Positions 3,901-18,127 of a stretch of DNA of 37,311 bases are shown one piece after another. The position numbers and the translations under genes are program-made. Position 1 is the stretch's first letter. Each line of letters starts with the position of its first letter. This DNA comes from a virus: IMG/VR virus record IMGVR_UViG_3300031784_000095, positions 1 through 37,311 of that record; one strand, written 5' to 3'. The notes beneath the pieces are model-generated. The model was not told where the DNA came from. It worked only from the letters and a program-made list of their open reading frames with translations, and ran no database searches.

Positions 3901-4395
3901 ATGAACATCTTCTTCGTTGACTCCGACCCGGACATCGCAGCGCAAGCGTTATGCGACAAGCATGTTGTCAAGATGCCTCTTGAATCAGCGCAAATGCTTT
4001 GCACGGCTCATCGCGTCGTTGACGGCGATGCGTACGCAGACCGCATAGGTCTGTACAAGCCATCGTTCATCAATCACCCCTGCACGATTTGGTGCCGCAG
4101 CACGCGCGAGAATTACAAATGGCTGTTTATGCACTTCCGTGCGCTACTCGCCGAATACACGCATCGCTACGGACGCGAGCACAAGTGCGGCGCACTTCTC
4201 GGCGCACTGGCGGTCGTTCCGGCCAAGATCGTTGATGTCCCGTTCACGCAGCCTCCGCAGGCCATGCCTGACGCGCAGCGTGTCGCGGGCGACAGCGTTA
4301 CCGCGTATCGCAACTATTACCTTCACTGCAAGGGAGCAATCGCCAAGTGGAATCGTGTTCCGCAGCGTATGCCCCAGTGGTACTGCCACCAATGA
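3901..4395 (+). CDS. Conserved phage protein, possible pyrimidine-dimer glycosylase-like fold
   Basis: 164 aa. The sequence has the pattern of a widespread phage family: N-terminal M-N-I-F-F-V-D-S-D-P, then C-D-K-H-V-V-K-M-P-L-E-S-A-Q-M-L, H-P-C-T-I-W and a final Y-R-N-Y-Y with K-W-N-R. Members are sometimes annotated as endonuclease V / pyrimidine-dimer DNA glycosylase-like (PF03013), but I see no decisive catalytic signature and the assignment is from memory. It begins eight bases after the replication gene stop and overlaps the next start by ATGA, so it belongs to the same early transcript. Confidence 0.75.
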   Translation: MNIFFVDSDPDIAAQALCDKHVVKMPLESAQMLCTAHRVVDGDAYADRIGLYKPSFINHPCTIWCRSTRENYKWLFMHFRALLAEYTHRYGREHKCGALLGALAVVPAKIVDVPFTQPPQAMPDAQRVAGDSVTAYRNYYLHCKGAIAKWNRVPQRMPQWYCHQ

Positions 4396-9483: not shown

Positions 9484-10119
9484 ATGAAGATCAAGCGTGT
9501 AGCCATCGAAACCCTTCAGTCCGACCCGCAGAATGTTCGCAAGCACAACACCGCGAACCTTGACAGCATCCGCGAAAGCCTGAAGAAGTACGGACAAGTC
9601 GAACCGCTGATTGTCGACGCGGACAATGTCGTGCGCTCCGGCAACGGTCGTTTGGAAGTGATGCGGGAACTGGGATACACCCATGTCAACATCCTCCCGA
9701 CAGAACTGAAGGGCAAGGAGGCGATCGCCTATGCCATCGCCGCGAACCGCACCGCCGAACTCGCGGAGTGGGATGACGAGAACCTGCTGGCGCAGTTGCG
9801 CATGATCGCGGAAATGGACGGCGAACTGCTGCTGTCTACTGGCTTCTCCGAGGCCGATCTTGAGCGTCTGAACGAAGACCTCAAGGCTGGCGTTGTTGAA
9901 TCAGAGGCTTCCGCCGAAGCGATGGGCGAGAACATTGCCAAGTACGAGAGCAGCGCGATCCGGCAGATCGTGCTGGTGTTCAGTATGGCGGAATACACTC
10001 GCGTCGTTGATGCGTTCGGTCGCTACTGCGATCAGCACGGGTTGAGCAATAACACCGAAGCCGTCATGCACCTTTTGGAGAGCAATGGCTATGCGTGTGC
10101 TGGAAAGAACGCGGACTGA
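9484..10119 (+). CDS. ParB/Srx-fold protein
   Basis: 211 aa. The N-terminal domain (about residues 1-90) matches ParB-like proteins: L-Q-S-D-P-Q-N-V-R-K-H, I-R-E-S-L-K-K-Y-G-Q-V-E-P-L-I-V, then R-S-G-N-G-R-L-E-V-M at residues 51-60 (the G-x-x-R-type nucleotide or phosphate loop), and A-I-A-A-N-R-T-A-E. The C-terminal part is helical. It is not a plasmid partition protein in this setting. ParB-fold proteins recur in phage base-modification and terminase operons. It overlaps the dioxygenase gene by 35 bases. ATG 9484 was chosen for the conserved N-terminus. Confidence 0.88.
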   Translation: MKIKRVAIETLQSDPQNVRKHNTANLDSIRESLKKYGQVEPLIVDADNVVRSGNGRLEVMRELGYTHVNILPTELKGKEAIAYAIAANRTAELAEWDDENLLAQLRMIAEMDGELLLSTGFSEADLERLNEDLKAGVVESEASAEAMGENIAKYESSAIRQIVLVFSMAEYTRVVDAFGRYCDQHGLSNNTEAVMHLLESNGYACAGKNAD

Positions 10120-10906
10120 ACTTGACCTGACGAAGTTCAAGAATCGCTCCGCACAAGAAACCGACTGCTCGACATACATCAAAGAGTCCACGACCGTGAC
10201 GGTCGATGGGCGCATTGTCATCGTTTACATCTCGTATGTCGATGACAAGGCTCTCGACGAGATGGCGAAGGTGCTGCCGGAAATCAAGTATCAGACTTCC
10301 ACGCGCACCAGCGGTCTCGTTACGACGAGCCGCATCTTCGGCTACGCACCGCGTAACGAACTGCGTCGCCAGCCGTGCAGGGCTACTGGCTTCGCGACGG
10401 AACAGCCGAGGGAACACGCGATCGTCGCTGCGGCCAGCAAAGTGGTCGAGCGTTACTATGTCGATTCGTTCCCTGAACTGTCGCAGTATCACCGAGAACT
10501 GACCGAAGGGAATGTGAAGGAGCAGTATCGGCTTGAGGGGACGATGTTCACAAGCGGAATCGTCAACCACAACAACCCGCTGCGCTACCATTTCGACAGC
10601 GGCAATTTCAAGAATGTCTGTTCGGCCATGTTGGCCTTCAAGCACAAGGTGTCTGGCGGACATCTCTGCATTCCCGAACTTGATTTGATGATTGAGATTG
10701 CTGATCGGTCGCTGCTGCTGTTCGACGGACAGGGGTTGATTCACGGCGTTACGCCGATCAAGAAACTGGCCCCGGATGCGCACCGATTCACGGTTGTGTA
10801 TTACAGTCTTCAGCAGATGTGGAACTGCGAAGCGATCACGGACGAGATTGCCCGACTTCGCAACAAGCGAGCAGAAATCGAACGAAAGCGAGCGAACCTT
10901 GAATAA
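10085..10906 (+). CDS. TET/JBP-like 2-oxoglutarate/Fe(II) dioxygenase
   Basis: 273 aa. The double-stranded beta-helix iron site is visible: H169-F-D171 (in L-R-Y-H-F-D-S-G-N-F), H220 (in L-I-H-G-V-T-P-I) and R234 (A-H-R-F-T-V-V-Y-Y-S-L) for 2-oxoglutarate, the H-x-D...H...R order of TET/JBP enzymes. The family oxidises the 5-methyl of 5mC or thymine in DNA. The N-x-N-x-x-L-R-Y-H-x-D-x-G-N and S-A-M-L-A-F-K segments fit phage members. The next gene encodes a TET-associated glycosyltransferase and the previous one a ParB-like protein, which strongly supports a DNA-base modification role. A charged helical tail (about 250-273) follows. Confidence 0.83.
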   Translation: MAMRVLERTRTELDLTKFKNRSAQETDCSTYIKESTTVTVDGRIVIVYISYVDDKALDEMAKVLPEIKYQTSTRTSGLVTTSRIFGYAPRNELRRQPCRATGFATEQPREHAIVAAASKVVERYYVDSFPELSQYHRELTEGNVKEQYRLEGTMFTSGIVNHNNPLRYHFDSGNFKNVCSAMLAFKHKVSGGHLCIPELDLMIEIADRSLLLFDGQGLIHGVTPIKKLAPDAHRFTVVYYSLQQMWNCEAITDEIARLRNKRAEIERKRANLE

Positions 10907-11594
10907 TGTCCATGTTGCCATCATCAGTGCGCGTCGGCCCGAGCGGGTTGTCCCGATGATGAAGTGGTGTCCTGACGCGACTTGGTATGTCGCGAAGGGC
11001 GAAACGAATCTGTATCGCGATGCCGGAGCCGCGAATGTCGTTGAGGGTGGAGGCCTGTGCGAGAGTCGAAACTTGGCGATCGATACGGCACTTTACAAGG
11101 GTCAGGTGTGCGTGCAGTTGAGCGATGATCTTTCGGCGATCAAGCGAGCGCACAACAAGAAGGAAGTCGAAGCGATCACGCTTGAAAGCGCGATCAAGGA
11201 GATGATTACGGTCACTTCCAAGATCGACGCGAAACTCGCCGGATGCGCGCCGACAAGCAATCCGTTCTACTACAACCCCGAGAAGCCTTATCGGTCAGCG
11301 GGATTCATCGTCGCGGATTTCATTCTCATTCGGCCATGCGAACTGCGTTTCGACACGAAGTTGCGGCTCAAAGAGGACTACGATTTCACGCTTCAGCACC
11401 TCGCGAAGTATGGTCGCGTGGCTAGGCTGGATAATCTGATGGCATCGTTCGCTCATCGCACCAACAAGGGTGGCGCAGTCGCCTACCGCACTTCTGAACT
11501 GGAGCAGCAGAGCATCGCGTATCTGCGTACCAAATGGGGCAAGGCAATCAAGAACAACCCACGCCGAGAGAACGAGATTCTTCTCAACATCTGA
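10899..11594 (+). CDS. TET-associated (GREB1-like) glycosyltransferase
   Basis: 231 aa from TTG 10899, overlapping the dioxygenase stop. No in-frame ATG lies near the conserved N-terminus, so TTG is the likely start. The sequence reads as a GT-A-type enzyme of the TET-associated/GREB1 group: V-H-V-A-I-I-S-A-R-R-P-E at residues 4-15, W-Y-V-A-K-G-E, a C-E-S-R-N-L-A-I-D segment and S75-D76-D77 as the metal/sugar-nucleotide site, then G-F-I-V-A-D-F and K-E-D-Y-D-F-T. It would transfer a sugar onto the hydroxymethyl base made by the dioxygenase. The sugar donor cannot be read from sequence. Confidence 0.8.
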   Translation: MNNVHVAIISARRPERVVPMMKWCPDATWYVAKGETNLYRDAGAANVVEGGGLCESRNLAIDTALYKGQVCVQLSDDLSAIKRAHNKKEVEAITLESAIKEMITVTSKIDAKLAGCAPTSNPFYYNPEKPYRSAGFIVADFILIRPCELRFDTKLRLKEDYDFTLQHLAKYGRVARLDNLMASFAHRTNKGGAVAYRTSELEQQSIAYLRTKWGKAIKNNPRRENEILLNI

Positions 11595-11932
11595 CTCCCG
11601 CACCGGAGATCGTTGATGCGAAGCGTGTGCGCAGCAGCCTGCGAACACTTCAGCGAGCGGTTGAGAACGGCTGGTCGATTCCCGAGAACATCGTTCAGGC
11701 AGCACCCCTGATCGTTGCCAGCATTCTTACGAATCGAAATGCCAGCGCAGCCGCGAGGCTTCGCGCAGCCGAAGTGCTGGCGGCAATGGCTCGCGACCGC
11801 GTGCAGGCGGCTATCGCTCTCGACAAGATGGAAAGACTTGACGAAGGCACGGCGACCGAGCGATTTGAAATCAGCCCCGAAGTTCGCGCTCGCGTGGCCG
11901 CAATCATGGCCAAGCGTCTAGGCAATGGATAG
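11534..11932 (+). CDS. Probable small terminase-like protein (start uncertain)
   Basis: Up to 132 aa. It lies directly upstream of and overlaps the large terminase gene, where small subunits usually sit. The body (A-K-R-V-R-S-S-L-R-T-L-Q-R-A-V-E-N-G-W to the end) is helical with R-L-R-A-A-E-V-L-A-A-M-A-R-D-R and a final P-E-V-R-A-R-V-A-A-I-M. No clear helix-turn-helix is seen. The only in-frame ATG is 11534, which overlaps the glycosyltransferase gene by 61 bases. Alternatives are CTG 11591, which overlaps the upstream stop as CTGA, and GTG 11627. Function by context only. Confidence 0.65.
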   Translation: MGQGNQEQPTPRERDSSQHLTPAPEIVDAKRVRSSLRTLQRAVENGWSIPENIVQAAPLIVASILTNRNASAAARLRAAEVLAAMARDRVQAAIALDKMERLDEGTATERFEISPEVRARVAAIMAKRLGNG

Positions 11933-13349
11933 CGACACGCAAGTCATTTTTGCGATGGCGCGCGAAGACCCGGACACCTTTGCGGAACTGCTCGGGTTCT
12001 CGCAGTCGGGCGTGCATAGCGATATGCAGAAGCACCTGACTCGCTATGCCAATGCGACCATCGGCCTGCCTCGCGGTCATGGCAAGTCCGTGCAGTGCGC
12101 GATCCGGCAGGCTTGGGAGATCGGGCAGAACCCACGCATTCGCATCAAGCATGTGGGTCAAACTGTCACGAAAGCGCAGGAGCAGATTCGCATGGTGGTG
12201 CAGATCATGCGAAGCGACATCTTCCGAATGGTGTTCCCCGAAATCCAAATCGTGAAGCCGAAACCCGAGGATGAGGGAAGCAACGAAATCCTTGTGCGTC
12301 ACGAAGCCATGCACAAAGACGCGACGATGCAGGCGGTCAACATCTTCGGTCGCGCAGGTGGCCGTTGCGATCTGCTGTGCGGAGACGATGTGTGCGATCT
12401 TCGGAACAGCGTCCTTGTGCCAGCCGAGCGTCAGAAAGTCAAAGAAGCGTGGAAGAATAACTGGTTGCCGATGCGAGACTTCAGCGCAGGCACGCCGCGA
12501 ACATGGAAACTGTTCACGCCATACCATGTCGATGACCTGACCACCGAATGGCGAAAGCAGGCCGAAGACGATGGCAGCCTGTACTGGCGACCCTGCAAGG
12601 GATTTGATTCACCTTGGCCCGAGGTGTTTACGCCCGAAGTGCTGCAGGCGCAGCGGGTTGAGATGGGGCCACTTGGTTATGCGCGAGCCTACGAACTGGT
12701 GGCTATCTCGCAGGATTCGCTGATTTTCCGCGAAGAATGGCTGCAGAACTCGTACTACATGAACGATCCGCCCGAGGCTGAAGCGTCATCGGGCACGGTG
12801 GTTGCCGCAATCGACTGGGCGTTCACCGAGAAGCGTGGAGACAGCGGCGACTATTCCGTCTGCGTGGTCGGTTTGCTTGACCCGAATGGCAAGTGCTGGC
12901 TGCTAGAAATGCTGCGCGTACAGGCAACTTTCCCTAATTTCATGCGGTCGGCTGTTGATCTGTGTCAGCGGCTAGGAGCCAGCATGATTATCGCGGAAGG
13001 CAATGGCCCTCAAGCGGGACTCTGCCAGCAACTCGCGCAATCCACCACGATTCCCGTTCGCCGGGTCGCACGCACGAAGGACAAAGTCACGCGAGCGAGC
13101 GAGGCGCAACCGATGGTTGAATCGGGCAAACTCAAACTTCGTTGCCGTTCTGATGGCAGGCTCGACCCTTCCATGGAGCCAATTCGTGACGAAATGCTCG
13201 CTTTCCCTCTGTCCGATCATGATGACACTGTAGATGCTGTGGTCGATCTATTGGAATACGCAAGGAATCGGCTATACATTCACAAGCCGGGAACGATCAG
13301 CACCATCAAAGACACCCGTCCTGAACTTTGGAGACTGTACGGCAGATGA
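11925..13349 (+). CDS. terL: Terminase large subunit
   Basis: 474 aa. The packaging ATPase and nuclease. Walker A G47-L-P-R-G-H-G-K-S55; Walker B-like D149-L-L-C-G-D-D155; a G-T-P-type coupling region (F-T-P-Y-H-V-D-D); then the RNase H-fold nuclease with D297 in A-A-I-D-W-A-F, I-I-A-E-G-N-G-P-Q and S-D-H-D-D-T-V-D-A near the end. It cuts and pumps DNA into the prohead with the portal. The length is typical. It overlaps the upstream gene by 8 bases and the portal start by ATGA, so packaging is translationally coupled to the modification genes. Confidence 0.95.
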   Translation: MDSDTQVIFAMAREDPDTFAELLGFSQSGVHSDMQKHLTRYANATIGLPRGHGKSVQCAIRQAWEIGQNPRIRIKHVGQTVTKAQEQIRMVVQIMRSDIFRMVFPEIQIVKPKPEDEGSNEILVRHEAMHKDATMQAVNIFGRAGGRCDLLCGDDVCDLRNSVLVPAERQKVKEAWKNNWLPMRDFSAGTPRTWKLFTPYHVDDLTTEWRKQAEDDGSLYWRPCKGFDSPWPEVFTPEVLQAQRVEMGPLGYARAYELVAISQDSLIFREEWLQNSYYMNDPPEAEASSGTVVAAIDWAFTEKRGDSGDYSVCVVGLLDPNGKCWLLEMLRVQATFPNFMRSAVDLCQRLGASMIIAEGNGPQAGLCQQLAQSTTIPVRRVARTKDKVTRASEAQPMVESGKLKLRCRSDGRLDPSMEPIRDEMLAFPLSDHDDTVDAVVDLLEYARNRLYIHKPGTISTIKDTRPELWRLYGR

Positions 13350-14821
13350 ACAACAAGAACGAAGAAGCATCGCAGGCTGGCATGGCGAACGATACGGCTC
13401 CGCACCCGGCGTTCCAAAGCCTTGTGACTCCGGTGGAGATGCAGCGTTCGTTCTATACGAGCGTCAACAAGATTCTCCGGCAGGGTTCGGTCGCGGTCCG
13501 AAACGAGCGTGCGCTTCAGCGGCAGATGCGGTTCGACCCCGATGTGATGGGGCCACTGCTGTCTTTGCAGTTGTCCGTGGCGTGCGCCGATTGGGCCGTC
13601 GCGCCGCAGGCTGATTACGCGCAGGATGCCGAAGCCGTCGAGCAGGCTGCGACGATGGAGAAACTTCTCAAGAACACGCCACGCTTCACCGATCTGCTGC
13701 GACATTTGATGGATGCGTTGTGGTATGGCCGTTCTGCGGTCAACATGGTGTACGGTCGCAACGGCGATACGATCTTCATCCGCGATTGGCTTCCGATTCA
13801 CGGCGACTCTGTTGTCGTTACGGAATACGGGTCGATCGGCCTCAAGGTCGGCCCACGCTATTACGCGAGCCAAGAATCCAGCAACGAGCCGAACGGAACG
13901 AAGATAGGCGACACGATCATCGGTTGGGATAGCCGCGTGCTGCCCATCGACCAGTTGCAGCGACAGACGATTGCTTTGCATACCTATCAGGCGCAGGGTG
14001 TCGATTTTGATGATCCCTACGAGGCAGAGAACGCGTATCTCGGTCGCGGAATGCGCGATCTGATTTGGTACTACTGGAAGATGAAGCAGCGAGTGCTTCA
14101 GAACTGGGATGCCTACTGCGAGCGTTACGGCATGGGCTTCCGCATCGGCACTTATCCGCTGGGCAATATGCAGGCCAAGAGCGAGATGGATGCGATCCTC
14201 GCGCAGTTGATGGGCGATGTTTCGGTCACGATTCCGAAAGACCCGAACACCGCCGAGCAGCCGTTCGACATCAAGTTGCTTGAGCCTTCGTCCAGCAACG
14301 CCGAGACTTTCGCCAAGATGGTTGAATACCTCTGCGGCAACATCAAGGAAATCATCCTTGGTCAGACAGGCACAAGCGAAGCGATTAGCACCGGAATGGG
14401 CAGCAGCGTTGCCGATCAGCACGCGCAGACGCTCAACAGGCAGGTCACCTATGTGGCTGGCTCGCTGGCAGAAACCGTTACGCGAGAGATCGTTGAGCCG
14501 CTGTATCGCATGAACTTCGGTGACGAAGGTGTGCCACCGCAGTTCACATTCGCGATCAGCAAGCCGAATCCCGATGAGTACATGAAGGCCATCGAACTGT
14601 TTACGAAACTTGGTGGCCGCGTAAGCGAGCGCGAAGCACGCAAGGTGTTCGGCTTGGCAGAACCGGAAGATGACGAGCCAGTGCTTCAGGCTCCAGCAGA
14701 ACCGGGTATGGCTCCGATGGACATTCGCCCTATGGGTGATGAGCCGGAGGAAACGGAAGCGACCGAGCGAGTCAGCGTAACAGAGCAGTTGGACAAGGCT
14801 GAAGGCAAGAACGGCGAATGA
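13346..14821 (+). CDS. Portal protein (Mu gp29-like, DUF935 family)
   Basis: 491 aa. Forms the dodecameric DNA channel at the head vertex. Matches the Mu gp29/DUF935 portals: early R-N-E-R-A-L-Q-R-Q-M-R-F-D-P, S-V-A-C-A-D-W-A-V-A-P, then D-A-L-W-Y-G-R-S-A-V-N, R-D-W-L-P-I-H, W-Y-Y-W-K-M-K-Q-R and the late L-G-Q-T-G-T-S-E. The C-terminus is acidic and low-complexity. ATG 13346 overlaps the terminase stop (ATGA); the extended frame from 13328 lies in terL. Confidence 0.93.
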   Translation: MNNKNEEASQAGMANDTAPHPAFQSLVTPVEMQRSFYTSVNKILRQGSVAVRNERALQRQMRFDPDVMGPLLSLQLSVACADWAVAPQADYAQDAEAVEQAATMEKLLKNTPRFTDLLRHLMDALWYGRSAVNMVYGRNGDTIFIRDWLPIHGDSVVVTEYGSIGLKVGPRYYASQESSNEPNGTKIGDTIIGWDSRVLPIDQLQRQTIALHTYQAQGVDFDDPYEAENAYLGRGMRDLIWYYWKMKQRVLQNWDAYCERYGMGFRIGTYPLGNMQAKSEMDAILAQLMGDVSVTIPKDPNTAEQPFDIKLLEPSSSNAETFAKMVEYLCGNIKEIILGQTGTSEAISTGMGSSVADQHAQTLNRQVTYVAGSLAETVTREIVEPLYRMNFGDEGVPPQFTFAISKPNPDEYMKAIELFTKLGGRVSEREARKVFGLAEPEDDEPVLQAPAEPGMAPMDIRPMGDEPEETEATERVSVTEQLDKAEGKNGE

Positions 14822-15873
14822 CCAAAGACTTCCTGCGTCTCTACAACTTGGGGCTGCGGGAGGCGAACTATTGGTACGCGAGGGCGGTCGCCAATCAGAT
14901 TCGCGGCGATACGGAGGCGGCAGAGAAGGCTTGGGTTGGATTTGAGAACGCCGTCGCCGATGTGATGACCCTGTCCTACCTAACAGGAGTCTCCGAGACC
15001 TACACCGTTGCCAAACAGGGTGGAATGCCACAGGAGCCACAGGAGTTCCCCGTGGAACGCCCGGAGACATTCGCCCGCCCGTCGCCAGCCTTCAAGCCGG
15101 GACAGTTCTGGAGGTATATCCGTACCTTTAGGAACCGAATACCGATGGGCTGGAAAGAGGTCGAGGCACGCCGAAAGCAGGCTCGCAGGCTAGCCGAGAA
15201 GATTCGGAAGGCAGAGAACGCCGAAGCCATCAAGAAACTCAAGCAGCGGCTAGAGGCTTTGCGAATGCTGACGGAGAACACCTTCGTGATGAAGGGTGCG
15301 ACGCAGCAGCAGGCCAAGCGAATCAAGCAACTGATTGCCGAAAGCATTGAGAATCGCCATGTCGCCAAGGGGTTGAAGACGGGCGGTATGTCGAAGTTCA
15401 TTCGGCGGGCACAGGTCGAAGGCATCATCAACGCCACGCACGCACGGCTGGAAGTCGTGTACCGCACGAACATCTCATCTGCCTACAACGAAGCGGCTTA
15501 CGAGGTGGCAAAGCGACCTGAAACGAAAGCATGGGCACCCCTGCTGCGGCTGTTTGAGGTTCACGACAGGCGCACCCGTGGCGCACCGGGCGGCGAATAT
15601 GCCACGAAAGGCAAATCATCTAACCCCGGATTCCACTGGCAGATGGATGGGTACATTGAGACTCCCGAGCGCATGAAGGCTCAAAACCTCATTCCGCCCA
15701 ACGGATTCAACTGTCGAGGATCGATCCGAGCCGTTTCGCGTTACGAAGCGATGCAACTAAAGATCGCCGACAAGGACGGAAATGTAGACCGAAAGGCACT
15801 TGATCGGTACAACTTACAGCGTCAGAAACTGATCGACAAAGGTCTTTACCCCGATCCCGGATTCAAACGATGA
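14818..15873 (+). CDS. Minor head protein (Mu gpF-like)
   Basis: 351 aa. The C-terminal half (about residues 190-330) matches Mu gpF/SPP1 gp7-type head morphogenesis proteins: Y-R-T-N-I-S-S-A-Y-N-E-A-A-Y-E, D-R-R-T-R-G, H-W-Q-M-D-G-Y and P-P-N-G-F-N-C-R-G-S-I. The central region (about 115-185) is a strong coiled coil. It probably sits inside the prohead near the portal and helps capsid assembly. It starts with an ATGA overlap with the portal gene and ends overlapping the next. Confidence 0.9.
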   Translation: MTKDFLRLYNLGLREANYWYARAVANQIRGDTEAAEKAWVGFENAVADVMTLSYLTGVSETYTVAKQGGMPQEPQEFPVERPETFARPSPAFKPGQFWRYIRTFRNRIPMGWKEVEARRKQARRLAEKIRKAENAEAIKKLKQRLEALRMLTENTFVMKGATQQQAKRIKQLIAESIENRHVAKGLKTGGMSKFIRRAQVEGIINATHARLEVVYRTNISSAYNEAAYEVAKRPETKAWAPLLRLFEVHDRRTRGAPGGEYATKGKSSNPGFHWQMDGYIETPERMKAQNLIPPNGFNCRGSIRAVSRYEAMQLKIADKDGNVDRKALDRYNLQRQKLIDKGLYPDPGFKR

Positions 15874-16643
15874 ATACTGAAGACAAGTTCTACTGCCTCC
15901 GTCCCGGCCAAATCCCTCGCGACAACGATCTCACGCGCCACAATCGACGGATGCTGGTTGAGGCTGTGTCGAAGGCTCGTTCCGTCGGCCTGATCGACAT
16001 TCCGGAGTTCAAGGCAGCAGTCGCGGCACTCAATTCGGTTTCTTCGATTACGCAGAACAAACTGTACGACCTTGAATATGCGCTGACTAAAGCGATCAAG
16101 GAAGAAGGCTTTGCCCGCCCCGGCCAGCCCGACGAGTTCCGCAGGGCCACGGATGACGAAATTGAAAACCTTCTTCTTGAAGCGGAATCTTTGATTGACG
16201 ATGGATTCCCAAGCAAGGCAATCCCGTTTCTTCGCAAAGCATCCAATTCAATCGACATGCACACGGACGCGAAACTGAAGAAAGTTCTCGCGGATCTTAT
16301 GCGAGAAGCCAATGTCCGCTTTTCCCGCCCCGGCCAGCCAGAGCGATTCGGTCTTGAGGATGCGTGCTGGGATGGCTACGAGCCTGTCGGCACGAAGCAG
16401 AAGGACGGTCGCACCGTCCCGAACTGCGTGCCGATGAGCAAAGACACCCACGCCGCTGATGATCGGTCGGCTGACTTCCTGCGCAAGATGGCTGTCGGTG
16501 TGACTCCGAGCAACATCAAGCAGATGCAGATCGTGGTGTCGCAGGCACTTGCCTACGGTCAGGGCAAGCGAGACACTATGCTGATTGAAGAAGCCAAGGC
16601 TGCGCAGGCCGAAATCAACGAACTCAAGAAGGCTGGCCATTGA
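15870..16643 (+). CDS. Modular head-cluster protein with R-P-G linker repeats
   Basis: 257 aa, function unknown. Begins D-K-F-Y-C-L-R-P-G. The linker motif F-A-R-P-G-Q-P-D-E-F (residues 81-90) and F-S-R-P-G-Q-P-E-R-F (151-160) divides it into helical units about 70 residues long. After the second linker comes C-W-D-G-Y-E-P-V-G-T-K and V-P-N-C-V-P, a small motif seen in various phage head-cluster proteins. The same linker occurs in the gene at 16913. It lies between the gpF-like gene and the protease-scaffold gene, so a prohead-internal or packaged protein is likely. ATGA overlap upstream. Confidence 0.75.
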   Translation: MNTEDKFYCLRPGQIPRDNDLTRHNRRMLVEAVSKARSVGLIDIPEFKAAVAALNSVSSITQNKLYDLEYALTKAIKEEGFARPGQPDEFRRATDDEIENLLLEAESLIDDGFPSKAIPFLRKASNSIDMHTDAKLKKVLADLMREANVRFSRPGQPERFGLEDACWDGYEPVGTKQKDGRTVPNCVPMSKDTHAADDRSADFLRKMAVGVTPSNIKQMQIVVSQALAYGQGKRDTMLIEEAKAAQAEINELKKAGH

Positions 16644-16644
16644 G

Positions 16645-16932
16645 ATGAGCCGAAAGGCAGAGGACAAGTTCTACTTCGGCGGCGAGTCAGTTCAGAAGGC
16701 TGGCCGCAGTCGCATACTTGGCAATCTGCTGGACAAGAACATCCTGCCGAATGGCGGGTGGCGTGCGCTGTGCGATCACGACGATCTGCTGATCGTGTCG
16801 TTTGAAGACCCGGACATCGCGGAGTTCGTGTCGAAGAAACTGAAGAAAGCAAGCATCGACCACGACGGGCCAACTGCGGCGGTCGGCGGTCATTTCCACT
16901 TGGAGGTCAGAGATGAATCAGAAGAAGATTGA
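16645..16932 (+). CDS. Small protein of the R-P-G linker cluster
   Basis: 95 aa. Begins M-S-R-K-A-E-D-K-F-Y-F-G-G, sharing the E/D-D/N-K-F-Y opening with its neighbours at 15870 and 16913. The rest looks like a compact alpha/beta domain (W-R-A-L-C-D-H-D-D-L-L-I-V-S-F, then H-F-H-L-E-V-R). Function unknown. ATG 16645 lies one base after the previous stop; the frame upstream belongs to the neighbour. It overlaps the next gene by 20 bases. Confidence 0.7.
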   Translation: MSRKAEDKFYFGGESVQKAGRSRILGNLLDKNILPNGGWRALCDHDDLLIVSFEDPDIAEFVSKKLKKASIDHDGPTAAVGGHFHLEVRDESEED

Positions 16933-18127
16933 GAACAAGTTCTACGCTGCGGCTCCGGGCAAGAAGGGCACGATGGCTCGCAATTCCGAGTTCGACACGG
17001 ACGAGGTGAAGAACATTCTTCACAAGGAATCTCGCGATGCCGAATGGGGCATTGACCGCGAGGCCAAGGGTCAGGGTTTGTACACCTACAGTGCCTATCA
17101 CGCATATATCGGCGAGCGTGTTTTCACCAAGCGATTCAACACTCGCGGCGAAGCGGAGAAGTGGCTTGAGAAGCAGAATGCGGCGGGCCATCCGAACAAG
17201 CGGAAACACGCCCGCCCCGGCGATAAGGATGAGTTCGCCGCCCGTTTGATCAATACTCTCAAAGACGACAAGTCCGGACGCGTCGCGAAGGTTTATCGCG
17301 ATACTGAATACAACGAGTATGTAGTGAAGTTTTACACGAACGGAACTTATCACTCAAAGGCGGATTTTTTCACCGACAACAAAGATGACGCGAATGCAAC
17401 CGCTTCAATGTGGATTCAAAACAAGTTCTCCCGCCCCGGCACGAAGGCGAAGTTTGAGTCACCAAAGAACAAGATTCTCGCAGAACTGAAAGACCTTCTT
17501 GTCATGCTGAAGCAAGTCAAGGCGGATCGTGATGACATCGCGATCGTTTCGGATTCGATCAAGTTTGTAGAAAAGAGCAACAGCAGCAGCGAAATCGGGC
17601 AGGTGTATCGCAATGCGATGGACATTGAGAGACAGTATTTCTCCCGTCCCGGCGCAAAGGCAAAGTTTGCGTGGACTCCGGGTGCTGCGCGCGAGCGAAA
17701 TTATGTCCTAGAGGTCGCACGCAAATTCGACATGGATTGCGCAGAGAAGATTGAGACGCTAAAGAAGGCTCTCGCTTCCGTTCGTAATCTCCGATCAATC
17801 ATTGCGAAGACGGAGAACATGGATGAATTGGACAGCACGCGCGACAAGATGTATTCGATCATGCGAGACGCGAAAATGGATTTCTCCCGCCCGGGCACAA
17901 AGGCGAAGTTTGCGTGGCAACCGGAGATCAATAACGCGATTCGCAAGGTAAATGCCACGATCGACAACAGTCAGGCAAGACTCCGAGAAGCGGCGAAACA
18001 GGGTTTGTGGGCTACTTCGGCTTCGATTTGCAAAGGCATCGGTGCTATGTATTCCGGCAACGGTGGACTTGTAACGCTCTACGAAGAACTTCAGAATGCG
18101 GCAGACAAGGAACGGCGGTCGAAGTAA
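16913..18127 (+). CDS. Large modular protein with F-S-R-P-G-x-K-A-K-F linkers
   Basis: 404 aa, function unknown. Opens with E-N-K-F-Y-A-A-A-P-G-K-K-G. Linkers lie at H99-A-R-P-G-D-K-D-E-F108, F172-S-R-P-G-T-K-A-K-F181, F243-S-R-P-G-A-K-A-K-F252 and F324-S-R-P-G-T-K-A-K-F333, giving units of about 71-81 residues. The first two units look alpha/beta, with aromatic strands (Y-T-Y-S-A-Y-H-A-Y-I-G and Y-V-V-K-F-Y-T-N-G-T). The later units look all-helical. The linkers could be protease sites, flexible hinges or binding tags. It lies directly before the protease-scaffold gene. ATG 16913 has GGAGGTCAGAG upstream. Confidence 0.78.
   Translation: MNQKKIENKFYAAAPGKKGTMARNSEFDTDEVKNILHKESRDAEWGIDREAKGQGLYTYSAYHAYIGERVFTKRFNTRGEAEKWLEKQNAAGHPNKRKHARPGDKDEFAARLINTLKDDKSGRVAKVYRDTEYNEYVVKFYTNGTYHSKADFFTDNKDDANATASMWIQNKFSRPGTKAKFESPKNKILAELKDLLVMLKQVKADRDDIAIVSDSIKFVEKSNSSSEIGQVYRNAMDIERQYFSRPGAKAKFAWTPGAARERNYVLEVARKFDMDCAEKIETLKKALASVRNLRSIIAKTENMDELDSTRDKMYSIMRDAKMDFSRPGTKAKFAWQPEINNAIRKVNATIDNSQARLREAAKQGLWATSASICKGIGAMYSGNGGLVTLYEELQNAADKERRSK

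Follow-up and report, generated by a model that had tools for sequence, protein, structure and literature searches.

Gene organization of the locus

The DNA studied here is the 37,311-bp virus record IMGVR_UViG_3300031784_000095 (positions 1 to 37,311), which may be a fragment and is referred to as the window. Three consecutive genes on its plus strand are assigned to a ParB-like protein of 211 amino acids (9484..10119), which has an N-terminal ParB-type domain with the motif RSGNGR, to a TET/JBP-family Fe(II)/2-oxoglutarate (2OG) dioxygenase of 273 amino acids (10085..10906), which carries H169-x-D171, H220 and R234, and to a TET-associated glycosyltransferase (TAGT) with a GT-A fold (10899..11594; 231 amino acids from a TTG codon), which carries SDD and KEDYDF motifs. 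The ParB and TET genes overlap by 35 bp, the TET and TAGT genes by 8 bp with the TAGT start at TTG 10899, and the TAGT gene overlaps by 61 bp the open reading frame of a putative terminase small subunit (11534..11932; weak match to phrog_74, E 0.024). The latter directly precedes and in turn overlaps the gene of the terminase large subunit (11925..13349; phrog_38, 3e-60; PF17289, 6e-11), and genes for a Mu-type portal protein (13346..14821; PF06074, 7e-51) and a Mu F-like minor head protein (14818..15873; phrog_220, 7e-10; PF04233 at 25.2 bits, below the cut-off of 29.6) follow, all of them on the plus strand. Thereby, the three overlapping genes running into the terminase genes that a sequence-only reading had described were found in place, as was each of the motifs it had listed (R-S-G-N-G-R; H169, D171, H220 and R234; S-D-D) in the respective protein.

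Elsewhere in the window, a gene at 3901-4395 encodes a protein of the pyrimidine-dimer DNA glycosylase family (PF03013, 3e-8), in a phage that is predicted to have modified pyrimidines. In the head region the motif [AS]-R-P-G-x-x-x-x-F is repeated in two neighbouring proteins (15870-18127; two and four copies) and it is also present in the relative L001 (7225-8256), where as here it is possibly a capsid-targeting or protease-related tag. Residues 164-192 of the protein encoded at 15870-16643, CWDGYEPVGTKQKDGRTVPNCVPM, match an element of about 28 residues that is common to several PHROGs of no assigned function.

The dioxygenase

In a Pfam profile search the product of the gene starting at 10085 matched Tet_JBP (PF12851) with 49.4 bits (curated cut-off 34.9; E 4e-13), and the metal triad H169, D171 and H220 together with the 2OG-binding R234 is invariant among 27 aligned TET sequences. 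An AlphaFold (AF2) model, folded from an alignment of the window protein and proteins of viral contigs, reached a pLDDT of 94.0. Its 16 best structural matches were exclusively human TET2, Naegleria NgTet1, Chlamydomonas CMD1 and Coprinopsis CcTet (Z 16.8-20.5), the closest solved structures being TET2 (Z 20.5), NgTet1 (19.8), CMD1 (19.4) and CcTet (17.4), with FTO (Z 15.8) and AlkB proteins ranking below the TETs. At the level of sequence, a search of the PDB returned CMD1 as the sole match (E 0.79). A prolyl-hydroxylase-type or other unrelated 2OG oxygenase, which the sequence-only reading had named as the placement that would speak against it, is absent from the best structural matches. The score above the Pfam cut-off, the invariant site and the DNA-acting TETs among the best structures support the proposed identity as a TET/JBP dioxygenase whose iron and 2-oxoglutarate site is intact and which is predicted to oxidise a 5-methylpyrimidine in DNA.

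Residues 1-270 of the model align with the catalytic domain of TET2, and the whole 273-residue protein is oxygenase. The structure alignment leaves no room in it for the J-DNA-binding domain of JBP1, and because of this the window TET is not classed as JBP1. In the tree the window TET pairs with the TET of L003 with full support, and it falls into a clade with TETs of actinophages that are linked to an amino acid:DNA transferase (ADDT) or a kinase (92/83, below the starred support level). Within this clade, TAGT-linked and ADDT/kinase-linked TETs are interspersed. Actinophage homologues of the TET are labelled 'queuine tRNA-ribosyltransferase' (PHROG 6059, RefSeq). Their sole match is Tet_JBP (sub-threshold) and the TET site is present, and the label, which is also carried by gene 2 of many Mycobacterium phages, was therefore rejected as a mis-annotation, apparently a propagated error.

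The glycosyltransferase and the ParB-like protein

The third gene of the string matched the TAGT profile (PF20691) with 30.2 bits (curated cut-off 27.5; E 5e-7), and the match was recovered again in a search of the whole record. Its open reading frame, called mechanically, begins at ATG 10776; most likely translation starts at TTG 10899, since conservation begins just downstream of this codon. The SDD and KEDYDF motifs are invariant in an alignment of 26 TAGT homologues, including both aspartates of SDD, and the invariant residues comprise D75, D76, E158 and D159 in the numbering from 10902, which some of the alignments use instead of 10899. The AlphaFold (AF2) model (pLDDT 94.6) shows a GT-A fold with relatives including GalNAc-T2 (Z 14.3; 3.8 A across 210 residues). 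Profile, fold and invariant acidic motifs thus support the identity as a TAGT-family GT-A glycosyltransferase, which is predicted to transfer a sugar onto a hydroxymethyl base.

Among 84,980 bacterial and archaeal genomes, searched with a single pattern, the only TAGT relative was found on a contig of a Flavobacteriaceae MAG (L118), and for this reason the cassette looks essentially viral. Several viral loci carry tandem TAGT genes or a TAGT together with a second glycosyltransferase (PF04488) (L008, L010, L042, L055, L061-L064; L020, L030), an arrangement that suggests disaccharide decorations.

The ParB-like protein matched phrog_620 (ParB-like) with an E value of 4e-33 and PF02195 with 20 bits, under the cut-off of 26.3. 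Moreover, its residues 1-141 match the N-terminal part of phrog_498 (2e-30), a family with a profile length of 633 that is labelled DNA methyltransferase and that we read as ParB-DNA methyltransferase fusions. As the same ParB module is found fused to DNA methyltransferases, we infer that ParB would act as a DNA-loading partner that recruits the modifying enzymes. Two proteins beside TET/TAGT genes that are labelled 'DNA methylase' (in MED4-117 and Javan291) turned out to be ParB as well.

Recurrence in other phages

Recurrence was assessed by anchoring on TAGT alone, using 38 loci flanked on each side by 2.5 kb or more and counting records, not independent events. ParB lies within 2.5 kb of TAGT in 34 of the 38 loci and TET in 24, so that the association is not due to chance. 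Across about 45 diverse phage contigs the triad is conserved, its frames intact and its catalytic residues invariant; the order is ParB-TET-TAGT or ParB-TAGT-TET, or the arrangement is divergent. About 25 further loci (L056-L086) show ParB-TAGT, in many cases followed by the terminase, without a TET nearby. Profiles, structure and recurrent context together uphold the core of the sequence-only reading, i.e., a base-hypermodification cassette of a TET/JBP enzyme, a TAGT and a ParB partner.

The coupling of modification to packaging, which had also been proposed, fared less uniformly. The large terminase lies within 4 kb of TAGT in 23 of the 38 anchored loci, and adjacency to the terminase is therefore frequent; however, it is not universal, as Arthrobacter phage Klevey illustrates. 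Diversity of the neighbouring terminases was discarded as proof of independent acquisition, since single linkage merged nearly all of them.

Exchange of modules behind the TET

Comparison of related phages shows that the gene behind the TET is exchanged. L001 and L002 are 99.4% identical to each other and each is 87-89% identical to the window DNA beside the swap site; exactly at the place of the window's TAGT they carry a 326-residue GT-B glycosyltransferase (PF13524), for which no further close relatives were found in viral contigs. By blastn, window position 10855 joins L001 position 856 on the left and window position 11606 joins L001 position 1906 on the right, which delimits the swapped segment to 10856..11605 of the window. 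Similarly, L107 and L111 as well as L109 and L113 share 80-82% DNA identity across the TET and again across the terminase, and between these flanks one member of each pair has ADDT and a P-loop protein (kinase), its partner a TAGT. Either TAGT or ADDT plus kinase can thus follow one and the same TET at an identical position, and the simplest reading is that both use the TET product.

Among 35 records, 17 have TAGT, 11 have ADDT and none has both (about 8e-5 by the hypergeometric distribution, with relatedness ignored). The search that finds ADDT (PF18724) in these 11 of 35 relatives gives no match in the window record, itself perhaps incomplete. In L003, whose TET is 55% identical to that of the window, the TET gene leads into those of the terminase without an intervening transferase, and searches of its 31.6-kb record gave no match to TAGT, ADDT or kinase 3. 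These arrangements suggest that the TET stays constant while the module that decorates its product is swapped, being a TAGT, a GT-B glycosyltransferase or a kinase plus ADDT. In phage KayaCho (L004) a protein annotated as 'terminase small subunit' (1802-2377) matches P-loop nucleotide kinase 3 (PF18751, 5e-112), and the annotation is probably erroneous.

Thymine or cytosine as substrate

The sequence-only reading had left open which pyrimidine is modified, and the genomic context now favours thymine without proving it. In the alternative, a C5 methyltransferase of the host, or of the phage and encoded outside the fragment, would form 5mC, the TET would convert it to 5hmC and the TAGT would glycosylate the product. 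A route of this kind is reportedly used by other phage TETs (Burke et al. 2021), and those phages resemble the window in that a phage TET is followed by tailoring enzymes; they differ from it in the methyltransferase, which is missing from the window record and from nearly all of its relatives. The profile of C5-cytosine methyltransferases (PF00145) had no match in the 37-kb window record, possibly a partial genome, none in 50 related records and none in 10 further complete phage genomes. The only match among 20 additional records was in L110 (1862-2536), in which Pfam confirmed a C5 methyltransferase next to the TET, a gene that is missing from the closely related L107. Overall, one of 81 related records (window included) and none of 13 complete phage genomes encodes such an enzyme, which argues against cytosine even if the neighbourhood in L110 speaks for it.

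In favour of cytosine, the structurally characterised TETs, all of them 5mC enzymes, are the closest structures to the window TET. The third residue after the metal-binding aspartate contacts N4 of 5mC and is Asn in TET2 and Asp in NgTet1 and CMD1 (PMC11040006). In the window TET this residue is Asn174, as in human TET2, and it aligns with Asn1387 of the human enzyme, which binds N4 of 5mC (PMC11040006); it is compatible with both bases. A call of thymine or cytosine from the residue after HxD was rejected, since ADDT-linked TETs have either Asn or Asp at this place. Furthermore, for T6-like phages a TAGT-family enzyme has been suggested to have glucosylated hmC as its substrate (PMC13390438). 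Weighing these points, we regard the cytosine route as rather unlikely, if far from negligible.

The decorating enzymes point to thymine. ADDT follows ParB-TET in the complete genomes of Tonitrus, LittleMunchkin, LilMcDreamy and Kozie, and P-loop kinase 3 (PF18751) follows it in 7 of 13 complete phage genomes. ADDT and kinase are said to act on 5-hmdU, in work of Lee et al. from 2018 and 2022. The exact exchange of TAGT for these enzymes known for 5-hmdU thereby argues against cytosine. For the ParB-TET/ADDT/kinase set of Rhodococcus phage Tonitrus, a possible thymidine hypermodification system was proposed by the authors (PMC11955845). No thymidylate-synthase-type hydroxymethylase, which would form hydroxymethyl-dUMP, was found in 11 complete TET-carrying genomes, and the TET is for this reason the only candidate found for the hydroxymethyl-forming step. 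PF00303 had a single match in the records searched, in L052, where a thymidylate-synthase-family gene is located about 2.2 kb upstream in a TAGT locus without a TET; this gene might supply the hydroxymethyl base at the level of the nucleotide pool. Judged by gene context, thymine is most likely the substrate of the window TET.

Proposed pathway and further alternatives

In the pathway that we propose, the dioxygenase would oxidise the methyl group of thymine in replicated phage DNA to yield 5-hydroxymethyluracil, and the TAGT would then move one sugar from a nucleotide-sugar onto the new hydroxyl, resulting in a base-J-like glycosyl-oxymethyl-uracil. ParB would serve as the DNA-bound partner bringing the enzymes to the DNA, perhaps as a nucleotide-driven clamp, and the modified DNA would be packaged and resist host nucleases. 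For the window we consider it probable that the virus encodes such a post-replicative cassette, converting thymine via hydroxymethyluracil to glycosyl-hydroxymethyluracil as a base-J-like base of the virion, with a ParB partner and a swappable decoration. With slightly more reserve, we lean towards phages in general running a base-J-like pathway, in which the TET forms 5-hydroxymethyluracil from thymine, a TAGT or GT-B enzyme glycosylates it, ParB does the loading and the decorator of sugar or amino acid is exchangeable.

Alternatively, ParB might direct oxidation and glycosylation to a small number of positions close to where packaging begins, in which case the modification would be a packaging or regulatory signal and no genome-wide shield, and the modified base would be comparable to the base J marks of kinetoplastids. 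ParB proteins usually load at specific sites, and the adjacency of ParB, TAGT and terminase is kept even in loci without a TET, both in line with a sparse mark. However, the cassette lies away from the terminase in Klevey and Altadena, and the swaps of the decorating module fit an arms race over the surface chemistry of the DNA better than a fixed signal, which makes a sparse mark quite improbable. A cassette that is decayed, or that has host DNA or RNA as its target, would leave the virion DNA unmodified. The structural neighbours that come next, AlkB and FTO, include RNA demethylases and would fit this reading. It is nevertheless very improbable, because the TETs rank above AlkB and FTO, frames are intact and catalytic residues invariant in about 45 diverse contigs, and the cassette is linked to the terminase and to DNA-decorating transferases.

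Comparison with known systems

A known counterpart of the post-replicative modification of thymine proposed here is base J of kinetoplastids. JGT, the glycosyltransferase of that pathway, belongs to the TAGT family, and base J and the window share a TET/JBP oxygenase and a TAGT-family glycosyltransferase. In the kinetoplastid pathway (JBP1/JBP2 and JGT) a TET/JBP enzyme hydroxylates the base in DNA and the new hydroxyl is then glycosylated (PMC10057400). The phage enzyme differs in being a bare catalytic domain of 273 residues that aligns end to end with the catalytic domains of TETs, with a ParB partner instead. In M6/ViI-type hypermodification, a thymidylate-synthase homologue makes 5-hmdU (PMC9599517). 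As in the pathway proposed for the window, hydroxymethyluracil is decorated there post-replicatively; the hydroxymethyl group comes from the nucleotide pool and an amino acid is attached, whereas here the TET would act on DNA and a sugar would be added.

Among phages with related cassettes, Tonitrus (PMC11955845) resembles the window in that ParB-TET heads a string into the terminase and the TETs fall into the same clade, but in place of the window's TAGT it decorates with ADDT and a P-loop kinase. The Arthrobacter phages Klevey and Altadena have ParB-TET-TAGT in the same order as the window, but in these a PIG-L deacetylase follows and the terminase is not adjacent. PIG-L-type deacetylase genes right after TAGT in Arthrobacter phages are located at 6810-7400 of L087 (PF02585) and at 6475-7068 of L088, an arrangement predicting transfer of GlcNAc that would be followed by deacetylation to glucosamine on the base.

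Phage TET/JBP-TAGT systems were reportedly predicted computationally by Iyer et al. in 2013 in NAR, with a TET/JBP dioxygenase adjoining a TAGT in tailed phages as in the window. This kind of cassette was thus already predicted, and what is new concerns substrate and logic, i.e., the scarcity of C5 methyltransferases, the association of sister TETs with ADDT and kinase, including their exchange for TAGT in one lineage, and the GT-B swap. Compared with those predictions, the swaps seen when near-identical phages are compared connect the TAGT, GT-B and ADDT/kinase modules with one TET product and point to thymine. As of 2019, glucosylated 5hmdU was unreported in phages (PMC6449724).

If thymine is the substrate, this phage would have its own equivalent of base J, with a TET acting on thymine outside kinetoplastids. 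Natural pairs of closely related phages that differ in the decorating module make the question of the substrate directly testable, and would provide a set of enzymes for placing different sugars or amino acids on one kind of base. Finally, ParB beside base-modifying enzymes and the terminase recurs across diverse phages, which raises the question of the role that ParB plays there.
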